Source: Pseudodesulfovibrio sp.
GTDB lineage: Bacteria > Desulfobacterota > Desulfovibrionia > Desulfovibrionales > Desulfovibrionaceae
Assembly (NCBI GenBank): GCA_016744135.1
Contig: JADGEX010000001.1
Span: 2,429,029-2,493,028 of the forward strand
Direction of reading: 5' to 3'
Length of the DNA: 64,000 nt
The notes under the pieces are model-generated. The model was not told the origin of the DNA. It saw only the letters and a program-made list of their open reading frames with translations, and made no database searches. This document shows positions 45,164 through 52,817 of this stretch, piece by piece. Numbering within the stretch: the stretch's first letter is position 1; each line of letters starts with the position of its first letter. The position numbers were made by a program, and so were the translations under genes.

Positions 45164-45487
45164 ATGAACCGCACAATCGTTCTGGCTGTTGCAACGGCCC
45201 TGATTACTATTTTTGCAGTTTCCATGGCCTTTGCCATGGGTGGCGGCAATGCTCGCAAGGGTAAGTTCCTTTACCGTAAAAACTGTCGCACCTGTCATAA
45301 TGGTGCTCAAGCTCCTGATTTGAGTCCGGCAGACCGCACCCAGGCTGAATGGACTGCCACGTTCAAGGACACAAGCAAGATCAAGTGTTCCGGCGACTGG
45401 TCGGCTTCTGAAAAAGATCTGAACGACATTTTCACGTATCTGCATGATTTTGCCAAGGACTCTCCGTCCCCGGCCAAGTGTAGCTAG
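45164..45487 (+). CDS. Small periplasmic monoheme cytochrome c
   Basis: A 107-residue exported cytochrome: signal peptide to about residue 25, one heme site CRTCH (Cys41, Cys44, His45), and a C-terminal helix DLNDIFTYLHDFA typical of class I c-type cytochromes. Two further cysteines (Cys75 and a C-terminal Cys106) are unusual. It probably donates or accepts electrons for the molybdoenzyme encoded next. GGAGG precedes the ATG. Confidence 0.88.
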   Translation: MNRTIVLAVATALITIFAVSMAFAMGGGNARKGKFLYRKNCRTCHNGAQAPDLSPADRTQAEWTATFKDTSKIKCSGDWSASEKDLNDIFTYLHDFAKDSPSPAKCS

Positions 45488-45632: not shown

Positions 45633-47828
45633 GTGTCGAATTCCAAGCAGACAATGTCCCGTCGTGATTTCTTCAAGGCTACTGGCCTTGTGGCGGCAGG
45701 GGCGGTAGGCGGTCCGGCTTTGCTGGGTGGTCTGAAAAAGGCGCAGGCGGCTCCCATGGCGGCCCCGGCCTGGGACTCAATGTTCTCGGCCTGCGATATG
45801 TGCTTCAACAAGTGCGGCCTTATCGCCCGTGTTGAAAATGGGGTCATCAAGAAGCTCGATCCCAATCCCAAATTTCTCAAGTCGCGGGGCATGTTATGTG
45901 CCCGCGGTAACGCCGGTCTTGATCAAGTCTATGATCCAGATCGTCTCAAGCATCCCTTGCTCAGAAAGGGAGCACGCGGCGAAGGCAAGTGGCAGCGCAT
46001 CCCGTGGGATGAAGCCATTGATATGGCCGCGCAGAAAATGGAAGAAGTTCGCAAGAAGTATACCCCCTGCGGTCATCTTTTCTCTGCCGGAACTGATCTG
46101 CATTCTCAGTTCGTGGGCCGATTTGCCGAAGTCTATGGTTCGTTTAATGTCACGTCCCATGAATCACTGTGTCTGGTTTCGGGCAACAGGGCGTTTCTTG
46201 ATACTTACGGAGAAGTGCCGTTCCCGGACGTGCTCAACTCCAAGTATATTGTTATGGCAGGTGCCAACCGCTTCGAAGCTTTGGTCACCCCGGATTCCAT
46301 TGATCTGATGACCGCCATCCGTGAGAACGGGTGCAAGTTGGTGACGCTTGATCCGCGTTATACCAAGACTGCGGCTCTTTCAGATGAATGGTATCCCATC
46401 AGGCCCGGTTCGGATATGGCGTTCATGCTCGCTCTGGCACATGTCATCATCGGTGAAAAACTTTACGACCCGCAGTGGATCGAAGAGAAGACATACGGTC
46501 TCGAACAACTGGCCGAACATGTCAAACAGTATACCCCCGGTTTTGCTGCAGAAGAGTGTGGCATTCCGGCAGAAGATATCACCCGCATGGCCCGTGAGCT
46601 GGCAGCGGCCGCTCCGGCAGCCATGATTTATCCCGGTCGTCGGACCTCGGATTATGAAGATTCCACCCAGATTCGTCGCAGTTTCGCCATTGTGAATGGT
46701 TTGCTCGGCAACTGGGACCGTCCTGGTGGTCTGTTGGCCGCTCGGCAGGTTGGCCTCAAAGGCGTGTCGTATGACGCCCCGTGGTATGATGAGAATCAGG
46801 ACGATCGTATCGACGCCCACAAGGTGCCGATGATGTTTGAGCACGAAGGTTCATTTTTGGTCACGCGTGATTCCGTACTGGCTGAGGACCCATATCCCAT
46901 CAAGGGGTGGTTCGTGTACAAGACCAACCCTATGGGCACGGCTCCCAATCGGAAGAAGACCATCGAGATGATGAACAAGATGGACTTTGTCACCGTGGTG
47001 GATATCGCCATGTCCGACACAGCTTGGTACGCCGATCTGGTCTTGCCGTCACAAAGTTATCTGGAGCGGACTGATCCGTGCGCCGGTTTGCAGGGTTCAG
47101 TGGCTTGCGCCTGTGTGGTCAAACGCGACCCACTCATTAAGTCCTTGTACGAATCCCGTTCACTCTTCGACATTATGAAGGGTATTGCCGGCAAGATGGA
47201 CCTCGGTGAATATTTTGATTTCACTATTGAGGAATTTCGCAAGAAGCAGACTCGTGAGATCCCGGAGGCCCTTGAGGTCATGGACCGCGACGGCGTCTAC
47301 TACAATCCGTCCAAGGTGTACGGCATTTATGAAGGTCGGATTTACAAGACCTTGTCCAAGAAGGTGGAGCTGTATAACCAGCGGTACGAGCAGATGGGGC
47401 TTGATCCCATGCCCATCTATACCCCGCCAACCAAGGTTCCCAAGAATCAATTCCGTCTGGTGCTCGGCCGAGATGCGGCAGTCACCCAGACCTCGACGAT
47501 CAACAATAAATTGCTCAATGAATTTAATCCTACCAATACGTTGTGGCTCAACACTGAAGCGGCAGGAAAGCTTGGTATTGCGGATGGTGATCTGGTCGAA
47601 GTGACCAGTCCTGTTGGCAGGCAGGAGCTCAAGGCCGAAGTGACGGACAGAATTAGAAAAGACACGGTGTACATGCTTTCGGGCTACAATACCTTGTCCA
47701 CCATGCAGACTTTGTCCCATGCCAACGGCGCATCTATCAATGAATTGTTGGATGATGATTATGACACGATTACAGGGAATGCTTCCATGCATACGACCTT
47801 TGTCACCGTAACAAGGAAGGTGGCGTAA
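45633..47828 (+). CDS. Tat-exported molybdopterin oxidoreductase, PsrA/PhsA-like
   Basis: A 731-residue catalytic subunit of the DMSO-reductase superfamily. It has a Tat signal (SRRDFFKATG, 9-18), 4Fe-4S ligands CDMCFNKC plus MLCARG (Cys54, 57, 61, 89), and SHESLC with Cys180 as the likely Mo ligand, as in polysulfide and thiosulfate reductases. The GTG start at 45633 has GGAGG ahead; upstream in-frame codons have none. Genes for the FeS subunit, cytochrome b, rhodaneses and TorD chaperone follow. Polysulfide, thiosulfate or tetrathionate is the likely substrate; arsenate or nitrate is less likely from context. Confidence 0.87.
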   Translation: MSNSKQTMSRRDFFKATGLVAAGAVGGPALLGGLKKAQAAPMAAPAWDSMFSACDMCFNKCGLIARVENGVIKKLDPNPKFLKSRGMLCARGNAGLDQVYDPDRLKHPLLRKGARGEGKWQRIPWDEAIDMAAQKMEEVRKKYTPCGHLFSAGTDLHSQFVGRFAEVYGSFNVTSHESLCLVSGNRAFLDTYGEVPFPDVLNSKYIVMAGANRFEALVTPDSIDLMTAIRENGCKLVTLDPRYTKTAALSDEWYPIRPGSDMAFMLALAHVIIGEKLYDPQWIEEKTYGLEQLAEHVKQYTPGFAAEECGIPAEDITRMARELAAAAPAAMIYPGRRTSDYEDSTQIRRSFAIVNGLLGNWDRPGGLLAARQVGLKGVSYDAPWYDENQDDRIDAHKVPMMFEHEGSFLVTRDSVLAEDPYPIKGWFVYKTNPMGTAPNRKKTIEMMNKMDFVTVVDIAMSDTAWYADLVLPSQSYLERTDPCAGLQGSVACACVVKRDPLIKSLYESRSLFDIMKGIAGKMDLGEYFDFTIEEFRKKQTREIPEALEVMDRDGVYYNPSKVYGIYEGRIYKTLSKKVELYNQRYEQMGLDPMPIYTPPTKVPKNQFRLVLGRDAAVTQTSTINNKLLNEFNPTNTLWLNTEAAGKLGIADGDLVEVTSPVGRQELKAEVTDRIRKDTVYMLSGYNTLSTMQTLSHANGASINELLDDDYDTITGNASMHTTFVTVTRKVA

Positions 47829-48568
47829 TGGCACAGCAACTTGCGATGGTTATTGATGCGGCCAAGTGCATCGACTGCAAAGCGTGTGTGGCTGCTTGTA
47901 AGGTCGCTAACGAAGTCCCGGAAGGGCAGTGGCGCAACTGGATCAAGCCGACCAGCGATACGCCGATCTCCGGCAAAAAGAGTGATACCGCTAGGTTCCA
48001 GCCCGGCGCATGCATGCATTGTGAAAATCCCACCTGTGTGGACGCCTGTCCTACTGGTGCGACGTACAAGGATAAGGAAACTGGTGAAGTCGTTATCAAC
48101 GAAGGGCTGTGTATTGGATGCGGTAACTGTATTCCTGCTTGCCCTTACGACGCCCGTTTCCGTAACGAGGTCAAGCGCAAGGCGGATAAGTGTAATTACT
48201 GTCCCGAGCGCAGGGCCGCAGGCATCCCTCCGGCATGTGTGGACACTTGTCCCACCAAGGCTCGGGTCTTTGGTGATATCAACGATCCCGACAGCGAAGC
48301 CGGTCGTCTGTACCTTAAAAATAAGGACCGTCTGACTCGTGTGGCCGCCAAGACCGACACCAAACCGAATATGTTTTATCTTGGTAACCCCGGTCCGGGC
48401 GAGTGGGGCCGTGAGGCTGTCATTCCTGCATCCATGATCGCCATGAAGCAGTCCGCACCATTGGTGAAGGGTATCGTGGCTCTGTCCGGTCTGGGCGTGC
48501 TTGCCATGCTTGGCCGTCAACTGTTTGTCGGCTCTGATTCCGACCACAAGGAGGATTCCGATGCCTAA
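47828..48568 (+). CDS. Four-cluster ferredoxin-like electron-transfer subunit (PsrB/PhsB type)
   Basis: A 246-residue protein with four cysteine sets (CIDCKACVAAC; CMHCENPTCVDACPTGA; CIGCGNCIPACPYDA; CNYC...CVDTCPTKA), each for a 4Fe-4S cluster. Unlike many PsrB proteins it ends in a membrane helix (GIVALSGLGVLAMLGRQLFV), like formate-dehydrogenase beta subunits. It wires the membrane cytochrome to the molybdoenzyme. It overlaps the upstream stop by one base and the next gene by eight. Confidence 0.93.
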   Translation: MAQQLAMVIDAAKCIDCKACVAACKVANEVPEGQWRNWIKPTSDTPISGKKSDTARFQPGACMHCENPTCVDACPTGATYKDKETGEVVINEGLCIGCGNCIPACPYDARFRNEVKRKADKCNYCPERRAAGIPPACVDTCPTKARVFGDINDPDSEAGRLYLKNKDRLTRVAAKTDTKPNMFYLGNPGPGEWGREAVIPASMIAMKQSAPLVKGIVALSGLGVLAMLGRQLFVGSDSDHKEDSDA

Positions 48569-49280
48569 CACCATGTTCAAACGACACGATAAAACCGATA
48601 TATTCATTCATTGGTTCAACGCGGCCTGCTGGCTGCTGCTTCTGCTGACAGGAGTGGGGCTGATCCAGCACCCGGCCATTGATCCGTTTGGTTCCGGCTA
48701 TCCCGAGGCTATGCGTGCCATGGTGGGCGGCGGGGCAAATCTGCTGGTCATCCATGAAATTATCGGTTTGCTTTGGCTGGCCGGGTTCGTTTTCTATCTT
48801 CTCGTCAACTTCAAGGGTGCCCGGTTTTTTCTGGCAGAAGTGTTCGCCGTCAGTCCGGCGCGTGACATGGCGTGGATGATCAAGAAAATGGTGCTCATGA
48901 CGCTGGGACCCAAGGCTCTCAAAGTAATGGGTATGGACCCGGAACTGCCGGATCAGGGATATTACAACATGGGCCAGAAGGCGTTTGCTCAGGCATCGGT
49001 TGTGGGCGGTATCGTTATCGCTGTGACCGGTGTGATCATGTTCATGTCCGACCGGACTTTTGGGGCCGAGTCTACAGGCATGATTGGCTGGGCCGTGACC
49101 CTGCACTTCATTGCTGTGGGGTTGGTTTTCGCTGGATTGCTGGTTCACATCTACATGGCTGCCATTTCGCCGGAAGAACGTCCCGGCTTCAAGTCCATGT
49201 TCACCGGCTTGGTTCCCGGCAACTATGCCAAACATCATCACCGCCTGTGGTGGGAAAAGGTCAAAACCGAGGGTGAATAG
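48561..49280 (+). CDS. Membrane cytochrome b subunit (FdnI/PhsC type)
   Basis: A 239-residue di-heme b-type membrane subunit with four main helices. It has DIFIHWFNAACWLLLLLTGVGL, HEIIGLLWLAGFVFYLL and LHFIAVGLVFAGLLVHIYMA, with histidines placed for heme ligation. It exchanges electrons with the menaquinone pool. The start at 48561 follows AAGGAGG. This FdnI-like partner differs from the NrfD-type PsrC. Confidence 0.9.
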   Translation: MPNTMFKRHDKTDIFIHWFNAACWLLLLLTGVGLIQHPAIDPFGSGYPEAMRAMVGGGANLLVIHEIIGLLWLAGFVFYLLVNFKGARFFLAEVFAVSPARDMAWMIKKMVLMTLGPKALKVMGMDPELPDQGYYNMGQKAFAQASVVGGIVIAVTGVIMFMSDRTFGAESTGMIGWAVTLHFIAVGLVFAGLLVHIYMAAISPEERPGFKSMFTGLVPGNYAKHHHRLWWEKVKTEGE

Positions 49281-49361: not shown

Positions 49362-50459
49362 ATGTATAGGAAATTGTTTGCCGCAGTCATGATGCTGGTG
49401 TTCGCTTTGGTGGCGACAACCGGTGTTGCAATGGCTGATGAAGCCAAGAAGCCGAAGTTCAAGGAATTCCACTCCATCGTGGATTACAAATTCGTGGCTA
49501 AGTACGCCAAGATGCCCAAGCCCAAGGGTGCGATGATCGTTGATTCTAGGCCGTATAAGCCGAAATATGTCGCTGGGTACATCCCGACTGCCGTGTCAAT
49601 TCCGACCAGTCAGTTCGACAAGATGGTGGATAAGTTGCCCGCCAACAAGGACGATCTCCTTGTTTTCTATTGTGGCGGCTTTCATTGCGGACTCTCCCAT
49701 AAAGCGGCCTGGAAGGCAGAAAAGCTTGGCTATACCAACGTCCATGTCTACGCCGCGGGTTTCCCGGATTATAAGAAGCACGCGTTGTACTACTCCATCG
49801 GTCTGGAAAATCTCCACGGCAAGATGGCCAACGGCGAAAAATACGCATTGATCGACGCCCGTCCATACCAGAAGTATTTGGCTGGCGCGATCCCGTCCGC
49901 TATCGGCATTCCTGAAAAGGATTTTGCCGACAAGCGCGGTATGTTGCCAATTGATAAAGCTGAAGTCACACTGGTTTACTATTGCGGCGGCTACAAATGT
50001 GCCCTGTCGCACAAGTCCGCAATCAAGGCCCGTTACCTTGGCTACAAGAAAGTTGTGGTTGCTGAAGCCGGTTATCCCGGTTGGAAGGAAATGTTTGGTG
50101 GTGCCGATGTGGCCGTCAAGGCCGGTGAAGCTGAAGGCGCAGTCGATGCCGAGTGGTTTCTGAAGACCATCAAGGAAAATCCAGATTCCATTCTGCTGAT
50201 TGATGTGCGTGATCCTGAGGAATACGCAGCCGGTCACTTCCCCTCCGCCATCAACATGCCTGTTGATATGGTTGAGAAAAAGGCCAAAGAAATTCCGACA
50301 GACAAGCCTATCGTATTCTCCTGTGCCACGGGCGCACGAGCTGGCGAAGCCTATTACCTGTTTATGGACATGGTGCCTGATGCCAAGAATGTCTTTTATC
50401 TGGAAGCCACTAATGATTTCGGTGAAGACAATTCTTACGAGGTTCATCCCAATAAATAG
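49362..50459 (+). CDS. Periplasmic protein with three rhodanese domains
   Basis: A 365-residue exported protein (signal peptide ending AMA). Three rhodanese domains follow: domain 1 with YCGGFHCGLSHKAA (Cys104, Cys109), domain 2 with YYCGGYKCALSHKSA (Cys208, Cys213), and domain 3 with SCATGARAGEA (Cys321). Domains 1 and 2 carry two cysteines spaced C-x4-C; domain 3 has the usual single one. It would carry or transfer sulfane sulfur to or from the reductase. AAGGGAG precedes the ATG at 49362. Confidence 0.9.
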   Translation: MYRKLFAAVMMLVFALVATTGVAMADEAKKPKFKEFHSIVDYKFVAKYAKMPKPKGAMIVDSRPYKPKYVAGYIPTAVSIPTSQFDKMVDKLPANKDDLLVFYCGGFHCGLSHKAAWKAEKLGYTNVHVYAAGFPDYKKHALYYSIGLENLHGKMANGEKYALIDARPYQKYLAGAIPSAIGIPEKDFADKRGMLPIDKAEVTLVYYCGGYKCALSHKSAIKARYLGYKKVVVAEAGYPGWKEMFGGADVAVKAGEAEGAVDAEWFLKTIKENPDSILLIDVRDPEEYAAGHFPSAINMPVDMVEKKAKEIPTDKPIVFSCATGARAGEAYYLFMDMVPDAKNVFYLEATNDFGEDNSYEVHPNK

Positions 50460-50523: not shown

Positions 50524-51534
50524 ATGATGATACGGACATCTTCCATTGTATATTTGCTCCTCGCCTTATGTTTTTTTGGGAGTGCACCCGCCAATGCCGA
50601 CGAAAATGAAGTTTGGTGGGCCGCTGCACAAGGTGAAGCCGAGCGCGAAGGGTATAAGCTTATTGACTCCAAGGGGTTGAAAGAGCTGATTGATTCAGGC
50701 GCGACGCCACTCATTATTGATGCGCGAGCTGATTATGAGTTCTCTGCAGGGCATATCCACGGCTCAAGCAATATGGAATTTGATCTTGGCGACCGTATGG
50801 ATCTGCCCGAGGCCAAGCGGGCTGTGCTCAAGGAATTGGCCGGACAGGATCAGAAAAGATTGCTGGTGGTGTATTGTCGTAGTTTCAGGTGACTGCGCAG
50901 CGGCATTGCGGCGCGCTGGGCAGCGCGTCTCGGATACACTGATGTTTATCGGTATGCAGCGGGTTTTCATGCTTGGAAAGAGACATACCCCGAACTCGTG
51001 GATGGCGTGCAGGAAGAAAAGCATATCCTGGCCGTGGGCGATACGTTTCCAGCCTGTCGGGTGGCGGTGCTGAATGGTGATGCGGATCGCGAATATCTGG
51101 AGTTACCGGAAGGGACCAAGTGGTTGCAGCTTTCTGAACTATCTGCCCGTTTTGTGCTGATCCAACTTTACAATACCATGTGTAACGACTGTGTCAGGGA
51201 AACCAAGTTGCTTTCTCGGTTTTTCAAGGATGTGGAGAACGATCCTGTCTTGGCCGGACAGCTCAAGATCATTGGGCTGGGTGTGTATGACTCGAATCAT
51301 GCAGTTGTCCGTTTTAAGAAACATTACGAGGTGGCCTATCCACTGTTCTCAGATAAAAGTGGACAGATTTTCGAGTGTCTTGGGCAGGCCGAATTGCCGT
51401 TGGCCTATCTGGTTCGGGCCGAGGGCGATGGCAACTGGACCATTGAGTTGATTCGGCGCGGATATTTTGAACCGGATAGCAAGTTCTTGGATGTACTTCG
51501 GTCAGCTGTGATTCGAACTGAGGAACTGGATTAG
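50524..51534 (+). CDS. Rhodanese-redoxin fusion with in-frame UGA, probable selenoprotein
   Basis: Reading through TGA at 50890-50892 gives one 336-residue frame: signal peptide (to about residue 26), a rhodanese domain, and a thioredoxin-like AhpC/TSA domain with MCNDC (Cys220, Cys223). The interrupted loop reads YCRSFRULRSG (Cys118, U123). After the UGA the same frame continues with a normal rhodanese end (AARLGYTDVYRYAAGF). The spacing C-x4-U equals C-x4-C in the sibling protein, so UGA takes a cysteine place. A hairpin follows the UGA. A nonsense mutation is the alternative; then two ORFs (50524-50892, 50998-51534) would be annotated. Confidence 0.75.
50893..50923 (+). promoter_or_regulatory. 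SECIS-like hairpin directly after the UGA codon
   Basis: Starting with the first base after the UGA, CTGC pairs with GCAG (50893-50896 with 50920-50923). One mismatch follows, then CAGC pairs with GCTG (50898-50901 with 50915-50918), with possible further GC pairs around an apical loop near 50905-50910. Position and size fit bacterial SECIS elements; the loop sequence is not a classical GGUC. Confidence 0.45.
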
Positions 51535-52145
51535 ATTTTTGATACTGCTTCCAGAGTTGCCACTGTGAGGTCTGCTATACAGGTGAATATTGGATGTGGG
51601 TTCGCCTTGTTTAGCGCGTTCCGGAAATGGCGTACCCACGGAAGCATGATTGACTCGGCGAATTCGACGCCTTGAACCGCTTGTTCATTTTGGCCGAACC
51701 AGCCTTCGGAGAGCAGGTAGAAGAGGAATTCGAGTTCAATGGTCAGATGGTCGGCGGGTTCGTTGGAGTCCAACGATATTTCAAGCCCGGCTTCCTGAAG
51801 ACGAGTTTGCATGTCTAACGCACTTTGTCCCATGGTTCGGGGTGTGGTGGCGAGATGACAGGATTCATACAACGGTGCGGGAATTCCCCCGGAACCGGCA
51901 ATGAACAGTCGGACATATTCGGTTTCAAGAATCGCGACGTCTTCATCCGAAAGGCTGGCTGATAATTGGTTTAAACGTTGGACCGGAGCAAGGAAGGCAT
52001 CGGGGTTTTTCTGGACACTGGCAAGGAGTTCAGGCACTCCAACCTTGGCGAGATTGGCCCATTCTTCTGCATTAGGGCCACGAAATACGGTGACACACAG
52101 CTCCAATACATTGAGTAAATGAAGTTTTGATTGAGATATGGACAT
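51531..52145 (-). CDS. TorD/DmsD-family molybdoenzyme chaperone
   Basis: A 204-residue helical protein with the TorD family core EYVRLFIAGSGGIPAPLYESCHL and PADHLTIELEFLFYLL. Such chaperones hold the Tat signal and guide cofactor insertion; the client is almost surely the molybdoenzyme at 45633. AAAGGA precedes the ATG at 52145. It ends four bases inside the rhodanese-redoxin gene and is divergent from the CsoR-family gene. Confidence 0.88.
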   Translation of the reverse strand: MSISQSKLHLLNVLELCVTVFRGPNAEEWANLAKVGVPELLASVQKNPDAFLAPVQRLNQLSASLSDEDVAILETEYVRLFIAGSGGIPAPLYESCHLATTPRTMGQSALDMQTRLQEAGLEISLDSNEPADHLTIELEFLFYLLSEGWFGQNEQAVQGVEFAESIMLPWVRHFRNALNKANPHPIFTCIADLTVATLEAVSKI

Positions 52146-52243: not shown

Positions 52244-52537
52244 ATGGAATCAGCAGCAACGGTTGAAGAACAGAAAATTAAGAAAAACGTTTTGTCTCGT
52301 ATGAAGCGGATCGAAGGGCAGGTGCGTGGTATTCAGGGTATGATTGAGGCAGGCAAGGAATGCCAGGATATTCTGGTTCAGGTTCGGGCTGTCCGCTCTG
52401 CTTTGCAATCCGCCAATAAGTTGATCTTGAAACGGTACATGTTGAGATGCTACGCCGATGCCATGGAGGGTGAAACTGATGAAAAAGAGGCTTTGGATAA
52501 ATTGATCAAGGTTTTGACCGGTTTTATTGAAGGTTAA
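52244..52537 (+). CDS. CsoR-family repressor, CstR-like persulfide sensor type
   Basis: A 97-residue DUF156 helical protein (RMKRIEGQVRGIQGMIEAGKECQDILVQVRAVRSAL...). Cys40 and Cys69 are 29 residues apart, as in CsoR and CstR. The position of the Cu(I)-ligand His (four before the second Cys) is Tyr65. Without that His it should not sense copper; two cysteines alone match CstR, which reacts with persulfides and polysulfides. Context with rhodaneses and a sulfur reductase agrees. AAGGAG precedes the ATG. Confidence 0.87.
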   Translation: MESAATVEEQKIKKNVLSRMKRIEGQVRGIQGMIEAGKECQDILVQVRAVRSALQSANKLILKRYMLRCYADAMEGETDEKEALDKLIKVLTGFIEG

Positions 52538-52559: not shown

Positions 52560-52817
52560 ATGAAAAAAATGTTTCTAGCCTTTGTATTGGTTCTCATTGC
52601 GAGTCAGCCTGTTTTAGCCAATACAAATTATAATGTCTGCTTCAATTCTTTGGATGCGGATGTGAATGGGACCATAACCAAAGGTGAGTTCTTGGTGGCG
52701 TTTCCCAGTGGAGAGTTGGCAATTTTTGAAAAGGCCGACACCAACGCGGATAGTGCGGTGGACCACGAAGAATGGGAAGCCTACAAGACGGAACAGGGGT
52801 TTGAAGAAAACCATTGA
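52560..52817 (+). CDS. Small exported EF-hand protein
   Basis: An 85-residue protein with a signal peptide (KKMFLAFVLVLIASQPVLA) and two EF-hand loops, DADVNGTITKGEF and DTNADSAVDHEEW, both with Ca2+-ligating residues in place. It lies 22 bp after the CsoR-family gene and may be cotranscribed. Role unknown; possibly a periplasmic calcium-binding partner. Confidence 0.82.
   Translation: MKKMFLAFVLVLIASQPVLANTNYNVCFNSLDADVNGTITKGEFLVAFPSGELAIFEKADTNADSAVDHEEWEAYKTEQGFEENH

Follow-up and report, generated by a model that had tools for sequence, protein, structure and literature searches.

A UGA codon in the active-site loop of a rhodanese-redoxin fusion is very probably read as selenocysteine beside a sulfur-reductase-like operon of Pseudodesulfovibrio

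Here we describe a gene of Pseudodesulfovibrio sp. that is interrupted by a single in-frame UGA and whose product is almost certainly a selenoprotein. The gene lies in a stretch of 64,000 nucleotides, hereafter called the window, and its sequence and that of its relatives indicate that the frame from 50524 to 51534 encodes a rhodanese-redoxin fusion in which the UGA at codon 123 is read through. The explanation that best accounts for the whole of the data, and that we regard as fairly probable, is an exported C-x4-U rhodanese-redoxin selenoprotein that belongs to the neighbouring operon and serves as a persulfide reductase. Standard gene calling cuts such a gene in two, leaving a shortened rhodanese and a redoxin on its own. 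The ORF finder likewise splits this frame into two open reading frames, the redoxin one starting with GTG at 50998, and in this way a conserved component of a sulfur-reductase operon is easily overlooked.

A sequence-only reading of the window had claimed that the frame from 50524 contains one stop, TGA at 50890-50892, and then continues in phase with a normal rhodanese ending and a CxxC redoxin domain. Both points are borne out: there is exactly one internal stop, at codon 123, followed by 213 further codons up to a TAG, and the motif C220-N-D-C223 is in frame. The features of the gene are as follows.

50524..51534, + strand: read-through gene of the rhodanese-redoxin fusion, a probable selenoprotein of 336 residues including Sec123
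50890..50892, + strand: in-frame TGA, codon 123, taken as selenocysteine; Cys or UGA at this place in 97 of 97 distinct relatives
50875..50877, + strand: codon of Cys118, residue 1 of the C-x4-U loop and the presumed sulfane-sulfur acceptor
50677..50982, + strand: rhodanese domain PF00581, residues 52-153, 62.5 bits
51112..51390, + strand: AhpC-TSA/Redoxin, TlpA/ResA-like domain PF00578, residues 197-289, 30.5 bits
51181..51192, + strand: redoxin CxxC codons, Cys220-Asn-Asp-Cys223, in frame with the rhodanese part

Both domains pass their gathering cut-offs, which are 22.2 bits for PF00581 and 26 bits for PF00578. The redoxin domain matches PF00578 and PF08534, and no PF02683 (DsbD) follows the rhodanese domain. 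Against solved structures it matches ResA with E-values down to 7e-12, with no peroxiredoxin among its 32 matches, and it combines the two marks of a TlpA/ResA thiol-disulfide oxidoreductase, namely an AhpC-TSA match and a CxxC motif (C220-x2-C223). The UGA sits within the active-site loop of the rhodanese domain, which reads YCRSFR-U-LRSG. The canonical short rhodanese loop is C-x4-R; this short form is absent from the window rhodanese domain, whose loop is C-x6-R, longer by two residues than the loop of 6mxv. Because of these two additional residues, an analogy to Thr252 of bovine rhodanese was dropped. The protein is putatively exported, since by eye it has a hydrophobic N-terminal start followed by ANA-DE. 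An AlphaFold2 model made from five rows (the window protein, L051, L052, and two domains of the triple-rhodanese protein encoded immediately upstream) reached a mean pLDDT of 46.8 and was not used.

One line of evidence for the selenocysteine assignment is the restriction of residues at this one site. The loop YCRSFRULRSG aligns without gaps, as had been noticed before, to YCGGFHCGLSH in domain 1 of the triple-rhodanese protein, and also to YCGGYKCALSH in its domain 2 (domain 3 is without a C-x4-C pair), and the UGA therefore occupies the position of the second Cys of C-x4-C. The first search, at E 0.001, covered 199 genomes of the family and had matches in 124; a good number of the matches were to other rhodaneses or redoxins. 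The first reading comprised 29 loci, 27 of 30 (L021-L047, which includes the window's own copy, L021) together with L051, from Pseudodesulfovibrio sp. MC-06, and L052; codon 118 encoded Cys in all 29, and codon 123 was TGA in 25 and TGC or TGT in 4. Profile searches then widened the set to the order (348 genomes) and the phylum (395 genomes). The loci counted number 122, or 97 distinct ones once duplicates are removed; a match in a genome of the window's genus (G339) has the coordinates of L051 and was dropped as a duplicate. Across these 97, a count that leaves aside the weaker rhodanese-only and redoxin-only matches of the 348- and 395-genome searches, among which a relative with another residue at either site may exist, sites 118 and 123 are C/U as in the window in 58, C/C in 23, U/U in 16 and anything else in none. 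Site 118 is thus Cys in 81 loci and UGA in 16, and the combination U/C does not occur in the loci read. The claim that the UGA replaces the second Cys is upheld by all 97, and the proposed comparison of homologues at residue 123 turned up Cys and Sec forms and no other residue in the loci read. That the TGA might vanish on resequencing had been a worry, but it recurs across many separately sequenced genomes, which makes a sequencing error very unlikely.

The 23 C/C loci fall into two sets: 13 are stand-alone rhodaneses of a CGFxKC type (one reads CGFTEC), while 10 group with the C/U genes. Cys forms at site 123 are found within the window's own genus as well (G004, G198, G329, G335 and G342). 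Outside the count of 97 stand L048-L050, L114, L129 and L133-L136; of these, L049, L050 and L114 (at the place of L043) are C/C, and L048, L129 and L133-L136 span the redoxin part alone. A loop-pattern scan of 60 genomes of the class found the pattern in 6, with 0 in the reversed control, and was excluded from the counts because it missed known Sec carriers whose loop sequence differs (G222, G229 and G043). The C-x4-C rhodaneses of the CGFxKC type are L049, L050, L115-L119, L121, L122, L124, L126-L128, L131 and L176. Three U-x4-U rhodaneses, L123, L172 and L173, are followed by a stop and thus resemble the known rhodanese/DsbD fusion TsoB without its DsbD part; in two more, L130 and L174, the stretch ends within the reading frame.

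A quick tree of the rhodanese domain, built from 139 columns with both sites masked and with support below 80 at 36 of its 94 inner branches, has a branch with an SH-aLRT of 96 that separates 68 rows (58 C/U and 10 C/C) from the U/U and CGFxKC-type rows. All 16 U-x4-U rows fall opposite the window, and the 13 CGFxKC-type rows were placed in the group with TsoB, not with the C-x4-U family. Within the window's branch site 123 is UGA or Cys and no other residue, Cys accounting for 10 of the 68 rows; the tree requires a minimum of eight exchanges of Cys and Sec at site 123, and of one at site 118. Compared with the nearest relative, L022, the part downstream of the UGA differs at 15 first, 10 second and 87 third codon positions, so that across 213 codons 78 differ synonymously and 21 non-synonymously, and in seven further comparisons the third positions again differ most. 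By these substitution patterns, the stretch 3' of the UGA is under purifying selection at the protein level.

The genome also holds the means to insert selenocysteine. A search for selA, selB, selC and selD had been proposed as a check, and all four are present: SelA (612 bits), SelB (399 bits) and SelD (341 bits) score above their cut-offs, and the tRNA-Sec gene selC scores 78.7 bits against a gathering score of 47. The machinery, the site confined to Cys and UGA, and the selection that continues past the UGA together sustain the view of the sequence-only reading that this is a probable selenoprotein. The selD gene of the window genome (L018, C51:2324234-2325163) contains an in-frame TGA of its own, so its selenophosphate synthetase is probably itself a selenoprotein. 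SelA and tRNA-Sec were present in 51 of 51 genomes tested, 10 with Cys forms of the fusion site and 41 with Sec forms. Since all 10 Cys-form genomes keep SelA and tRNA-Sec, we rejected the idea that Cys forms mark a lost capacity for Sec insertion; the exchange of Cys and Sec was not forced by loss of the machinery. In the draft genome G329, selA appears to lie in two overlapping pieces (C50:17659-19025).

The hairpin that had been said to begin at the base after the UGA does form in RNAfold, but its place as a SECIS element does not stand: against dinucleotide shuffles its z-score ranges from 0.03 to -0.99, and because it is no more stable than the shuffles we rejected it in favour of a better candidate further on.

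50910..50929, + strand: candidate bacterial SECIS hairpin GGCGCGCU-GGGC-AGCGCGUC, 8 pairs, -12.4 kcal/mol

Its apical loop, GGGC, lies at 50918-50921 and is separated from the UGA by 25 nt. The legend of Fig. 2 in PMC13188914 gives four rules for a bSECIS, namely a loop of 3-9 nt, a G in the first two loop positions, a place 16-37 nt after the UGA, and an energy of -7.5 kcal/mol or lower, and the hairpin conforms to all four as the legend words them. These rules are lax, with about one third of synonymous recodings passing, and an Rfam search of 50800-51100 gave no match. At the columns of 50910-50929, the 58 C/U genes have a mean of 5.64 of the 8 pairs against 3.89 in synonymous recodings, a mean that rises to 6.28 (recodings 4.01) in the 40 of them that are redoxin fusions; for the ten same-branch Cys relatives the figures are 4.30 and 3.71, and the U/U genes show no excess (3.31 against 3.43). 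The difference between the C/U and Cys genes has a p of 0.03 with the relatedness of the rows left in, as it is in all of the SECIS statistics. An earlier version of this column test used 24 Sec and 4 Cys rows, with L052 left out. In the 24 Sec rows 82% of the cells are paired, and covariation is modest: it scores 0.183, the shuffles 0.136 with 2 of 500 reaching as high, and a slide of +2 nearly as much at 0.167. In the fixed test the window hairpin reaches a p of 0.001, but it was chosen from the window sequence itself.

When the place of the hairpin is left free, one that fits the rules is found in 45 of 58 C/U genes (37% of recodings), 15 of 16 U/U genes (34%), 7 of the 10 same-branch Cys relatives (34%) and 0 of 13 CGFxKC genes (2%). 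The z-scores of C/U and same-branch Cys genes do not differ in this test (p 0.40); taken gene by gene, it gives p <0.05 in 5 of 58 C/U genes, and 0.126 in the window's own gene. The Cys relatives that still have a rule-fitting hairpin after the Cys codon are L032, L033, L043, L045, L107, L109 and L110. Such hairpins may partly arise from the amino acids encoded (AARWAAR) or, in the Cys genes, be relics of a lost UGA. The SECIS evidence from these alignments is therefore compatible with selenocysteine, at a moderate level and not decisively, because same-branch Cys relatives so often have rule-fitting hairpins too.

The surroundings of the gene point to sulfur metabolism, and the same set of neighbours accompanies its relatives. 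In the window they are:

45164..45487, + strand: cytochrome c, conserved operon partner, in 39 of 39 regions
45675..47828, + strand: PhsA/PsrA-like molybdopterin oxidoreductase (MopB), start codon uncertain, conserved partner
47828..48568, + strand: Fe-S subunit with several 4Fe-4S domains, conserved partner
48561..49280, + strand: cytochrome b561-type membrane subunit, start codon uncertain, conserved partner
49362..50459, + strand: triple-rhodanese protein with C-x4-C loops in domains 1 and 2, immediately upstream of the fusion gene
51531..52142, - strand: TorD/DmsD-like chaperone, in 24 of 26 family regions and 7 of 13 others
52244..52537, + strand: CsoR/FrmR-family regulator with Tyr replacing the metal-binding His, in 26 of 26 family regions and 0 of 13 others
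52560-52817: small exported protein after the regulator, EF-hand-like by eye; tblastn matches in 13 of 26 regions of the family and in none of the 13 from elsewhere

With the window proteins as queries and regions taken around the best matches, which is not a random draw, all 26 family regions have the genes for cytochrome c, MopB, the Fe-S subunit, cytochrome b and the triple rhodanese upstream, on the strand of the fusion gene and in a constant order. A further 13 regions, which come from four other families gathered at the level of order or phylum, contain the five partner genes too, on the same strand in every case and in the same order in 12; in the thirteenth, the triple rhodanese lies downstream of the selenoprotein gene. 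It is thus highly likely that the rhodanese-redoxin selenoprotein is a functional partner of this operon. The MopB enzyme is a putative thiosulfate or polysulfide reductase, with a score of 512 bits that is below the PhsA equivalog cut-off of 694; a passage in PMC11505543 describes phsA(psrA) of Pseudodesulfovibrio as presumably active in thiosulfate reduction. The earlier picture of the fusion, a protein that carries or handles sulfane sulfur through a selenylsulfide switch near a sulfur reductase, would fit this conserved gene order.

The regulator may add to the picture. In the CsoR family a particular His binds metal, and the persulfide sensor CstR has two Cys and is without that His. In alignments to CsoR-family structures, the regulator at 52244-52537 keeps the Cys and has Tyr at the place of the His, a hint that it may serve the operon as a persulfide sensor like CstR; its NCBIfam matches include no CstR model. 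Homologues of CstR often repress rhodaneses, according to a statement in PMC10318464.

What might such a protein do? Rhodaneses load sulfane sulfur onto the first Cys of the loop, and the presence of another Cys or Sec at the fifth residue after it, together with a fused thiol reductant, suggests that the persulfide is resolved within the molecule. The fusion partners are thiol reductants in both cases, a ResA/TlpA-like domain in the window protein and DsbD with thioredoxin in TsoB. In the proposed mechanism, Cys118 would take up sulfane sulfur from the triple rhodanese, from polysulfide or from the reductase and become a persulfide; Sec123 would then attack the inner sulfur of this persulfide, releasing sulfide and leaving a Cys118-Sec123 selenylsulfide, which the C220/C223 redoxin would reduce, drawing electrons from the thiol system of the periplasm. 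On this view the protein would be a persulfide reductase that depends on selenium and whose task, next to a thiosulfate or polysulfide reductase, is to clear sulfane sulfur or to channel it. We give this chemistry, with its Cys118 persulfide, Sec123 attack and reduction by the redoxin, about even chances. Speaking against it, the redoxin part is missing from 20 of the 68 rows of the window's branch and present in 48, and its CxxC is absent from 4 of 22 aligned fusions, all of one genus. The fused redoxin would accordingly seem dispensable, unless a separate thioredoxin serves, as it would have to in forms without the redoxin or without its CxxC. In the genus that is without the redoxin CxxC (L038-L041 and L147), an ELECCTPD motif occurs further on in that domain.

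Three other accounts of the gene have to be weighed against this persulfide reductase. One holds that the TGA is a true stop, whether a pseudogene mutation or a sequencing error, that leaves a rhodanese fragment and a separate redoxin starting from GTG 50998. The two ORFs that the ORF finder reports would follow from it, the hairpin right after the UGA is no better than shuffles, and rule-fitting hairpins are not specific to Sec genes; but the same TGA codon is shared by 58 distinct C-x4-U genes with Cys or UGA in the other 39, purifying selection extends across the UGA, the genome has a full set of Sec machinery, and termination would fall in the middle of the rhodanese fold, all of which makes a true stop scarcely credible.

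The other two accept the selenoprotein and differ on its work. It could be a sulfur carrier, not a reductase, with Cys118 and Sec123 holding or relaying a sulfane-sulfur chain to the molybdoenzyme, much as Sud-type rhodaneses carry sulfur for polysulfide reductases. A carrier would suit the fact that a PhsA/PsrA-like enzyme and a triple rhodanese accompany it in all 39 regions, that stand-alone members do without redoxin, and that one genus has lost the CxxC of that domain. We nevertheless consider a carrier unlikely: of 22 aligned fusions 18 keep a CxxC redoxin, TsoB has DsbD as its fusion partner, sulfur carrying requires no resolving residue, and the advantage of Sec is usually a redox one. 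Still less probable is a protective role in the operon, in which a selenoprotein thiol oxidoreductase would counter selenium or redox stress by reducing selenite-derived species or peroxides, or by repairing periplasmic thiols. Here the match of the C-terminal domain to AhpC/TSA is in favour, and so are a passage in PMC13188914 that ties selenoproteins to antioxidant defence and one in PMC5877670 on the rhodanese-like extH of a Geobacter cluster implicated in selenite reduction. However, the structures matched are thiol reductases of the ResA/TlpA type, with not one peroxiredoxin among the 32, the operon neighbours are of a sulfur type, and the chemistry of a rhodanese loop is that of sulfane sulfur.

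Returning to the persulfide reductase, we put forward tentatively, as a reading somewhat less probable than not, that it represents a long-loop rhodanese family whose loop sites switch between Cys and Sec, which acts as a selenium-dependent persulfide reductase, and which is a fixed part of a thiosulfate/polysulfide-respiration module in sulfate reducers and their relatives. If this is true, the supply of selenium would limit part of the dissimilatory sulfur cycle. As judged from their genomes, carriers with matching thiosulfate- or polysulfide-reductase-like neighbours are many related bacteria, mostly sulfate-reducing. A Sec close to a persulfide-bearing Cys would link selenium to sulfane-sulfur turnover, and the natural Cys forms at site 123 offer a ready-made comparison for the contribution of Sec.

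The closest known selenoprotein, by sequence comparison, is TsoB (NCBIfam NF045694), described in the NCBIfam model and in a passage of PMC13188914 as a rhodanese/DsbD fusion with a U-x4-U loop; Tso stands there for three selenoprotein operon. TsoB shares with the window protein a long-loop rhodanese, Sec at the second loop position and a fused thiol-reducing partner. It differs in that its loop is U-x4-U, whereas in the C-x4-U loop of the window the first position is Cys and the second alone is Sec, and the window protein has a ResA/TlpA-like redoxin instead of DsbD and stands in a PhsA-like operon. It scores 97.9 bits against NF045694, with a cut-off of 805 and 966.9 for the true TsoB of a relative (L164), and we rejected an assignment of the window family to TsoB on score, loop, partner domain and its separate branch in the tree (SH-aLRT 96). 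The rhodanese-related (seleno)protein NF041203 also has Cys and Sec in its loop, but as LYCAU, a C-x-U and not a C-x4-U, and the window protein scores 24.2 bits against its cut-off of 115.

PMC13188914 distinguishes, in the part that concerns rhodaneses, five selenoprotein forms with the motifs UxxS, UxxG, CxU (NF041203), UxxG and, for TsoB, UxxxxU; the string 'CxxxxU' is absent from its main text. The first of these, UxxS, could be the window site, since U-L-R-S fits it, as far as a comparison by motif goes. PQQ_CXXCW (TIGR03865) is rhodanese-like and has a two-Cys motif in its name; the match is weak, covers residues 100-155 and reaches 33 bits against a cut-off of 128. Against ResA (NF002854) the window protein reaches 42 bits, with a curated cut-off of 170, and it passes no NCBIfam cut-off. 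A rhodanese-like domain with Sec is mentioned in passing, at least in one passage, for a deltaproteobacterial genome in PMC8318568, and in the open-licence full-text literature no title or abstract among the matches listed concerns a rhodanese-redoxin with a C-x4-U loop that is encoded in a Phs-like operon. The operon itself resembles phsABC and psrABC in the MopB, Fe-S and membrane cytochrome b subunits encoded upstream, while it adds to them a cytochrome c and two rhodanese genes, one of them that of the selenoprotein. Very probably, then, the C-x4-U rhodanese-redoxin is a selenoprotein that stands beside TsoB, in a conserved operon of a sulfur-reductase-like kind.
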